From NCBI GenBank assembly GCA_021792795.1, contig JAJYUB010000015.1:1-64000 (forward strand): a stretch of DNA of 64,000 nucleotides. Direction: 5' to 3'. Shown here piece by piece: positions 1-1,720 of this stretch. The stretch comes from Acidobacteriota bacterium. Lineage in GTDB: Bacteria > Acidobacteriota > Terriglobia > Terriglobales > Acidobacteriaceae. The notes below the pieces were generated by a model. It was not told where the DNA came from, did not search any database, and was given only the letters and a program-made list of their open reading frames with translations. Both the position numbers and the translations under genes were made by a program. Numbering within the stretch: position 1 is the stretch's first letter; the number at the start of each line of letters is the position of its first letter.

Positions 1-118
1 TCACAAAAAGCATGGTATCACGGGTGGCATCATTTGATTTGTCTTCGCATTGGTTTTGCTGGGAGATGGAAGTGATGTGACATTCCCCGGATAAATGGAG
101 ATTATGTGCCGAGGTCGC
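1..118. other. Left edge, no gene assigned
   Basis: The first 75 bases read open on the plus strand to a TGA at 73-75. They could be the tail of a gene that begins outside the window, but the 24 residues match nothing I recognise. The rest, up to the DUF4338 fragment, shows no gene or clear inverted repeat, and no IS end could be placed here. Confidence 0.3.
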
Positions 119-577
119 TCAGGTCTGCGTCAAGGCCGACCGCAGGTCGCCGCTTACGCGGGCAACCGGCTGTTCGTAACCAAGATAGTGATGTTCCTCC
201 ATCAGGCTGTTGAACAACGGCTCCTGCGCGCCGCGCCGCACCTGCTCGAACTCGAGCGGCTGCAGCGCGCGCAACCGATCTTCGATGGGAGTCTTATCGA
301 TCAACACCGGTTCCGGCCGGACCCTCTGTGCCAGCGGATTATGCCGCGCGTAACTGACCGGCGGCAACGCGATCTGGCCAGATCGCTCCAACATCAGCAG
401 CATGCCGCGGCACACCATGTCGCGCAACGCCCCATTCGTCTGCCGCCACTGCCAGGCTTCGCATACTCTGACCGACAGCTTGCGGCGGCTTTCCTTCGGA
501 TAATGCTCGATCAGCTTGCGGATAGATAAGATGTCTTCCTGATGGATCTCGCGCCCGCGATACCTGAACTCAGTCAT
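119..577 (-). pseudogene. Truncated DUF4338 (DruA-like) protein
   Basis: This 152-residue frame resembles the N-terminal part of DUF4338 proteins, the family that includes DruA of the Druantia defence system and many IS-associated proteins. The family-like stretch runs up to EEHHYLGYEQPV, a conserved block normally followed by a long C-terminal half. Here the sequence turns into unrelated residues and stops about 20 codons later, so most of the protein is missing. It lies 64 bases downstream of an IS66-type tnpA-tnpB pair on the same strand, where tnpC would usually be. The family call is from memory of its motifs; the truncation is seen directly. Confidence 0.6.
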
Positions 578-641
578 TGCCCAGAAGTATGGATCATTTT
601 TTCCTGGAACGCAAGGGGAAAATCTGTGCGCGTTGCGATCT

Positions 642-1001
642 TTACTTCAGCTCGCTCACTCGCCGCCACATCGGCGCGGCGCGGATGCGCGACACATCGC
701 CAGCCACCATCAACAACTGGGCTTCGTAGGCCTCCAACTGCTTGGCCGCCGAGTTCGATTCCGGCCACCACGTGAACCGTCCTTGGGAAAGGCGCTTTTG
801 CGCCAGCCAATATCCCTGGCCGTCATAAGCAAGTACGCGTATCGACGTTCCTCCGCGGCTTCTGAAAACGAAAACACAGCCGCTGATCGGATCCTCGGAA
901 AGCTTCTCCTGGCAAACGCGCACAAGACTGTCAATGCCCTTGCGGCCATCGACCGACTCGATTGCCACCAGCACCCGCATCTGCGCCGTGATATGGATCA
1001 T
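642..1001 (-). CDS. tnpB: IS66-family accessory protein TnpB
   Basis: A 119-residue protein typical in length for the IS66 Orf2 (TnpB) family, a small accessory protein needed for IS66 transposition. The MRVLVAIESVDGRKGIDSL block, the FVFRSRGGTSIRVLAYDG block and the aromatic GYWLAQKRLSQGRFTWWP stretch match the family. The ATG at 1001 was chosen because it overlaps the tnpA stop as ATGA and matches the normal family start; an in-frame ATG at 1112 would lie deep inside tnpA. It looks intact, but no full tnpC is present, so the element is unlikely to move by itself. Confidence 0.85.
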   Translation of the reverse strand: MIHITAQMRVLVAIESVDGRKGIDSLVRVCQEKLSEDPISGCVFVFRSRGGTSIRVLAYDGQGYWLAQKRLSQGRFTWWPESNSAAKQLEAYEAQLLMVAGDVSRIRAAPMWRRVSELK

Positions 1002-1399
1002 CGCTCCGATTCCCGCCAGGCACGAAACAGACTTGCCCAATCGGGTGGGATGGATGCCTTCCATTGAATCCGCATCTTGCTCCCAACCGAGGACTCCAAC
1101 TCGATCACGCAATCCGCCATCGTCGCCGAATGGTCCGCGATCAGTTCAACGAATGTCGGCTCGGCCATCCTCTTTTTCGGATCCGAAACACCGTCGAGTC
1201 GCTTCTTCAGCCTCGTATGGTCCAATCGCAACGGATGAGCCACTGCATACACACCATGTTGCCGAGCCAGCTCCACCGCCGCCTGCCACAGCGTCTCAGG
1301 CAGCTTCGTCCGATGCGGCCGCATGCTGCGAAACTCATCCAACTGCCGTTGCAACTGCTCGATCGCACCAGGAATGGGCGTTGCGCTTTTGCTGTTCAA
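998..1399 (-). CDS. tnpA: IS66-type TnpA-like protein
   Basis: A 133-residue protein immediately before tnpB, overlapping it by four bases. It has a basic N-terminal half with LRLDHTRLKKRLDG and a second half (FVELIA, CVIELES, KMRIQWKA) like the small first ORF of acidobacterial IS66-type elements. The order tnpA-tnpB is that of IS66; the third gene of the usual trio, the DDE transposase tnpC, is missing and a DUF4338 fragment follows instead. The function is inferred mainly from position. Confidence 0.6.
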   Translation of the reverse strand: MNSKSATPIPGAIEQLQRQLDEFRSMRPHRTKLPETLWQAAVELARQHGVYAVAHPLRLDHTRLKKRLDGVSDPKKRMAEPTFVELIADHSATMADCVIELESSVGSKMRIQWKASIPPDWASLFRAWRESER

Positions 1400-1441
1400 T
1401 CTCAGCCGACCTCAGCGGCTGATTGAACGTAGCAGTCTGAT

Positions 1442-1720
1442 TCACGTGGCGTCACGCACGCTTGCCGAAAACACACAAGCTTCCCAAAGCACCACCAAGG
1501 CTTCATTGACGGCCTCATCAACAACAATTCGACAAGTATGTTGTCGAGCCGGTGTCGCATGCCCAGTCAAAATTCTGATTGCATGCTTGCGATGATAGCC
1601 GGTGATCTTCGTAAATTCATCCAGAATCACTTTCCTGCCCGTACGGTCAGCCTCGCTACACCTGCTGCGGACAGCACCTATCAGTTCCTTCCGCGCTGCA
1701 AGAGTCATGTCTCTCCTCAC
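1442..1720 (-). pseudogene. N-terminal fragment of integrase-like (ISNCY-type) transposase
   Basis: The 92 residues begin like the helix-turn-helix N-terminus of large integrase-core transposases, with MTLAARKELIGAVRSR, ILDEFTKITGYHRKHAIRIL and ALVVLWEA. Just after LWEA the reading frame leaves the family pattern; a one-base change near the TTTT run around 1466 would restore a plausible GKR continuation. The whole DDE catalytic domain is missing. It sits upstream of tnpA on the same strand and is one of four unrelated transposase pieces in about 2 kb. Confidence 0.6.

Follow-up and report, generated by a model that had tools for sequence, protein, structure and literature searches.

A truncated IS66-type transposon that carries druA, a putative Mom-like gene, as a fourth gene

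The window analysed here is a stretch of 64,000 nucleotides from an Acidobacteriota genome (G000). It is the start of contig C66, so that base 1 is the contig end. On the minus strand we identified tnpA (998–1399, TTG start assumed) and tnpB (642–1001), which are joined by an ATGA overlap of the tnpA stop (998) and the tnpB start (1001), followed by the front part of a truncated druA gene (DUF4338, 119–577). The sequence-only reading had described this overlap and this gene order, and both the coordinates and homology to a further copy in this genome, on contig C11, agree with it. TnpB matches Pfam accession PF05717 (87.9 bits, cut-off 26.6) and shares 57 of 116 residues with the C11 protein. 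No Pfam or NCBIfam model matched the window tnpA over its cut-off; the gene was named from its position and its identity to the C11 copy (52 of 127 residues). The window druA frame alone scores 13.7 bits with PF14236, below the cut-off of 27. It has 76 of 133 residues identical to the intact C11 DruA, and the homology ends at residue 138, at about base 164.

The left terminal inverted repeat of the element (1452–1476, minus strand) has two mismatches to a 25-base end consensus from relatives. It lies in an interrupted host open reading frame (1442–1720, minus strand) that enters the inverted repeat at position 1476. Of the span 119–1720 first proposed for the unit, 1477–1720 belongs to this host frame, as the element's left end lies at 1476–1452. 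The host frame, which we take to resemble a transposase N-terminus, has no match in Pfam or NCBIfam. A search of the genome for an empty site, through another copy of the interrupted flank, returned only the window itself.

On its other side, druA is cut by a foreign repeat (1–163, minus strand), one half of a large palindrome with copies on contigs C92, C2 and C46 of the same genome. The palindrome arms lie around GTCTGTGTCAAGGC / GCCTTGACACAGAC, and integrase-like genes adjoin the copies on C92 and C46. The palindrome looks like the recombination site of another mobile element, breaking the contig. A minus-strand GTAAGCG near 163 was considered as an IS66 end and rejected, as it is part of this palindrome beside integrase-like genes. 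The absence of tnpC from the window is due to the cut in druA and the end of the contig. The remainder of this copy is absent from the assembly, since C11 has the sole PF14236 match in the genome and PF03050 matches twice, once on C11 and once on C117, where tnpB and tnpC are directly adjacent.

Contig C11 carries, in tight order, tnpA, tnpB, druA and an IS66-type tnpC. The C11 DruA open frame has 338 codons. C11 tnpC is cut near its end, and its product matches PF03050 (132.8 bits, cut-off 23.1) and scores 145.4 with NCBIfam NF033517, below the cut-off of 180; three related loci (L107, L123 and L132) score above it. The C11 order thus identifies druA as a fourth gene between tnpB and tnpC and not, as the sequence-only reading had it, as a gene found instead of tnpC.

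A scan of named genomes with 14 IS66-type DruAs as queries returned at least 572 relatives, of which the best 80 were kept; three of these (L107, L149 and L127) had already been met as records. The 80 come from Acidobacteriota, Pseudomonadota, Planctomycetota, Chloroflexota, Gemmatimonadota, Myxococcota, a candidate phylum and others, and, having been chosen by DruA similarity, do not measure the frequency of druA among IS66 elements. Among these best 80 of at least 572 relatives, tnpC lies directly downstream of druA in 78, tnpB lies upstream in 62, and all four genes are present in 57. The druA–tnpC spacing is often −4 (ATGA-type). The two members without tnpC are L126, which is at a contig end, and L142, where none was seen though the contig continues. 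Nine loci (L130, L132, L133, L136, L141, L160, L164, L170 and L174) have tnpB and tnpA on the opposite strand after druA–tnpC, and all nine have end repeats on both sides.

These counts bear on two simple explanations of the window. A substitution of DruA for the DDE transposase in third place would account for the absence of a visible tnpC, but with tnpC directly after druA on C11 and in nearly all of the best 80 relatives we regard this as practically excluded. A chance deletion or rearrangement that placed DruA beside tnpB, the other possibility raised from the window alone, would suit a copy that is itself truncated at a repeat and a contig edge; against it, this order is found again elsewhere in the genome and in 57 of the best 80 of at least 572 relatives, in many phyla and inside shared ends, and we assign it a negligible probability. 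Few genomes with this order, or IS ends between tnpB and DUF4338, had been named in advance as signs against a class of IS66-like elements with DUF4338. Neither sign is seen, for the order occurs in many genomes and the inverted ends flank the four-gene unit as a whole; the class is real, with druA added to tnpC and not replacing it. The order tnpA–tnpB–druA–tnpC is therefore a transposon type, and the copy in the window is a truncated representative of a widespread IS66-type transposon whose four genes lie inside its own inverted repeats.

The end consensus GTGTCCTTYCGGCAAGCSTGCRTGA, with variants such as GTGAGC, encloses the whole unit, which usually measures 3.3–4.5 kb. IS66 elements duplicate 8 bp of target DNA, and the terminal repeats of the family begin GTAA. 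Most of the related ends begin GTGTCC or GTGAGC, and one (L135) begins GTAAGC. We identified 42 loci with an inverted repeat pair and eight flanking bases on both sides. Perfect 8-bp duplications flank six of these (L048, L124, L129, L162, L169 and L183) and duplications with exactly one mismatch flank none; in a cross-locus control, 2 of 1722 pairs agreed at zero or one mismatch. The sequence-only reading had proposed looking for shared inverted ends and target-site duplications around the unit, and both are found. The 36 pairs with no clean duplication speak against our reading or are uninformative, and since many of the contigs are metagenome assemblies, their flanks may be mixed.

Several loci depart from the simple four-gene arrangement. 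In L048 (2345–9398), the four-gene element with its perfect 8-bp duplication has tnpB split by an insert of about 3.5 kb. A viral contig (IMGVR_UViG_3300048503_000080, 42,680 bases) carries a four-gene element at both ends in opposite orientation (L309 and L310), which is either a composite transposon or an assembly artefact. In L248 and L249, both on one Desulfobacterales chromosome, an IS66-type tnpC comes after druA and neither tnpA nor tnpB was detected; druA is thus also found in shorter IS66-like elements.

We searched 396 genomes of the phylum with PF14236 and found matches in 32, 31 of them over the cut-off. The 58 matching rows reduce to 57 loci (two rows of one gene were merged), and the neighbourhoods of all 57 were fetched and annotated using C11-seeded profiles together with Pfam, NCBIfam and PADLOC. 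A DDE transposase is linked or fused to DruA in 44 of the 57 loci. These comprise IS66 (25 loci, 24 agreeing with PF03050 places and the remnant L075), ISAs1 (9), IS4 (5), IS1182 (2), IS701 (1), IS1634 (1) and an unnamed DDE_Tnp_1 protein (1). Four further loci (L043, L044, L045 and L057) encode a defence-type DruA, and nine are remnants or unassigned (L046, L072, L076, L090, L092, L095, L096, L097 and L098). Transposases of IS1182, IS701, IS1634 and IS4 occur as DruA neighbours. Some family names fall below NCBIfam cut-offs (IS1182 in L047, 100.7 against 270; IS701 in L055, 162.4 against 170; IS4 in L062, 139.1 against 152). Fusions of DruA to a transposase score above the cut-offs for IS4 (L059), ISAs1 (L088) and IS701 (L257, a locus outside the 57).

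One genome (G322) contains ISAs1–DruA fusion elements of about 2.15 kb at three places, 98.5–100% identical and each flanked by its own 9–10 bp direct repeat; the DruA domain thus sits inside elements that have moved. Among Pseudomonadota, 17 of 398 genomes have a match, with the same kinds of linkage in the short stretches read. In three Pseudomonadota loci (L294, L295 and L302), the C-terminal part of PF14236 is found in open frames 1077, 702 and 1297 codons long, which probably represent a further DruA class. Two plasmid matches contributed nothing on IS66.

IS66 elements also occur without druA, which is absent from 28 of the best 30 IS66 loci in the PF03050 list. Among 20 further loci, hand-picked from that list as having no adjoining DruA row, we identified three (L262–L264) with tnpA–tnpB–tnpC units of the same TnpC clade and with similar ends; the flanks of L264 show a direct repeat of 8 bp at the ends of the element. 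This clade can therefore live without druA. In a TnpC tree (quick method, with long branches L050, L048 and L270), which supersedes a 35-row tree with few druA-less elements, L262–L264 nest among druA-bearing rows, with three changes in all, a pattern that would fit druA loss. Where present, druA is under purifying selection, with a median dN/dS of 0.15 over 126 non-independent pairs, compared with 0.18 over 19 pairs for tnpC; conservation is often higher within druA pairs than within tnpC pairs.

The Pfam family of DruA also includes a defence protein. PMC7251935 describes DruA as part of Druantia, and PMC6174562 lists it once. In the titles and abstract beginnings searched, a scope that leaves subscription journals and ISfinder outside, no link between DUF4338 and IS66 or between DruA and a transposon was found. 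In a quick-method tree, defence-type DruA forms a separate group on a long branch with 100% support, and the transposon DruAs mix across transposase families, with 14 label changes for 10 groups. The PADLOC DruA models match L043–L045 and L057 strongly and L049 and L046 weakly (E 0.0005–0.002); for the two IS66 four-gene DruAs tested (L069 and L008), they returned no family. The IS-sized units between inverted repeats leave little room for druB, druC, druD and druE. The link that the sequence-only reading drew between the DruA defence protein and transposition is a distant family relation, given this separate branch and the missing PADLOC matches.

DruA could nonetheless be a passenger without a part in transposition, acting by itself against phages or plasmids for the benefit of the host or the element. 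The druA-less relatives in the same TnpC clade, the frequently stronger conservation of druA than of tnpC, and the inclusion of defence DruA in the family all agree with this. A passenger would not be expected to be fused to the transposase in three families or to adjoin transposases of different families directly, and the two IS66 four-gene proteins tested lack a PADLOC match. We consider such a role unlikely, though worth keeping in mind.

Structure prediction suggests a different kinship. An AlphaFold2 model of a transposon DruA, built on 45 sequences (pLDDT 87.2, pTM 0.82), has as its best solved match the phage Mu protein Mom (8bv8; Foldseek E 7e-7 in PDB; Z 14.2, rmsd 4.1, 170 residues aligned), and a Mom protein ranks third among viral models in the fold search. 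Ordinary GNAT enzymes follow next after Mom at Z 12–13, and that so many GNATs score nearly as well counts against the Mom reading. PHROG 1384 ('Mom-like DNA modification protein') is matched by an IS4 fusion (E 1.1e-5) and by the IS66-type L107 (E 0.0013). With the Mom family itself (PF25680), the transposon DruAs scanned reach at most 19.3 bits, below the cut-off of 27.1; a phage protein (L316) exceeds both cut-offs, with 68.7 for DruA (cut-off 27) and 27.2 for Mom. DruA-only profiles did not find Mom among PDB sequences. Profile A5, which includes three phage Mom-family rows, reaches it with E 3.9e-6.

Aligned with transposon and phage rows, Mu Mom has H48, R101, S114, G146, Y149, A151, N153 and G158 (GenBank numbering) in common with them. 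The solved Mom chain is titled as an inactive mutant, S124A, and differs in the aligned stretch by an alanine at GenBank S114; S114 is therefore the serine that was changed, with a numbering offset of ten. This serine aligns with one that is invariant in all nine rows of alignment A5, and in IS66-type alignments the matching S206 is nearly invariant or invariant. An N-terminal domain, a candidate helix-turn-helix, is found in stand-alone and IS4-fused DruAs and is absent from ISAs1 fusions; searched by fold on its own, this domain had no PDB match better than E 0.88. The predicted model, together with the shared residues, shows the DruA of this element type as a GNAT-fold protein related to phage Mu Mom, plus an extra N-terminal helical domain.

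Mom-like models also match phage relatives of DruA, some of which are fusions with HNH nucleases. Phage contigs (L312, L313, L314, L315, L318, L319, L320 and L321) encode a DruA/Mom-like gene with a weaker DruA-like open frame a few kb upstream. Related proteins are mentioned in the literature, as Mom fused to nucleases in jumbo phages (PMC7824862), as DruA-like phage proteins recognised by structure (PMC12774648) and as DUF4338, a GNAT domain, in DndF proteins (PMC10853773).

Several observations bear on what the GNAT domain acts on. DruA might tune transposition by acylating a protein such as TnpC, TnpB or a host replication factor. In PDB, most GNATs of closely similar fold acetylate proteins or small molecules, and fusion or coupling to a transposase would place DruA beside a protein target. 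Yet the best fold match is a DNA modifier whose serine, changed in the inactive mutant, is shared, and the phage relatives resemble Mom and are in part nuclease fusions; protein acylation is in our view unlikely but, like a passenger role, a rival to take seriously. A further possibility is addiction, in which DruA, as a GNAT toxin, would stabilise the element. Some GNATs are toxins, but this idea fits poorly with DruA–transposase fusions, and a general reading of the compact unit showed no antitoxin-like gene, which makes it very unlikely.

The best reading, from sequence comparison and the predicted fold, is that IS66-type DruA is an optional, conserved, Mom-like module of DDE transposons that probably acts on DNA. 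Phage Mu, itself a DDE transposon, uses the DNA-modifying Mom to shield its DNA from host restriction and nucleases. By analogy, DruA would be an acyltransferase modifying DNA bases at the element or close to it, brought to that DNA by the transposase, where fused, or by its N-terminal domain. The modification would most likely protect element DNA, whether excised or newly arriving, from host restriction and nucleases. DruA would help the element without being essential, because some relatives lack druA. A small IS moving within one cell has little obvious benefit from restriction evasion, which counts against shielding. We give this explanation as a whole, a four-gene transposon whose Mom-like DruA modifies DNA and shields the element, about an even chance.

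A broader and more tentative proposal, which we hold possible but would not bet on, is that Mom-type DNA modifiers are general, repeatedly recruited partners of DDE transposases (IS66, IS4, ISAs1, IS701, IS1182, IS1634 and Mu) that mark element or target DNA within the transposition cycle and are not mere cargo. Druantia DruA would then be a distant relative taken into defence.

A protein best known from an anti-virus system is thus a built-in gene of jumping DNA elements in many bacteria. If our reading is right, the family filed as 'Druantia DruA' is mostly a transposon component in the genomes sampled, and defence surveys that count PF14236 alone would therefore be inflated. Several unrelated transposase families would share one DNA-modification-like partner, which may explain why Mu, a transposing phage, has Mom. 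Whether a transposon chemically marks DNA to move or to survive arrival would become a testable question.

Compared with known systems, the element resembles the IS66 family in its TnpB (PF05717) and TnpC (PF03050), both over their cut-offs, in the tnpA–tnpB overlap and in the 8-bp duplications at 6 of 42 measurable pairs. It differs in the extra druA between tnpB and tnpC, or before tnpC where tnpA and tnpB are flipped, and in ends that mostly begin GTGTCC or GTGAGC and not GTAA. Its DruA shares a Pfam family (PF14236) and a GNAT-like core with the DruA of type I Druantia, but lies off the long branch of the latter, has no PADLOC match (two tested) and adjoins transposases. Phage Mu Mom (PF25680, 8bv8) is the best fold match and shares the H, R, S, G, Y, A, N and G positions, whereas transposon DruA scores below the Mom Pfam cut-off and has an extra N-terminal domain.
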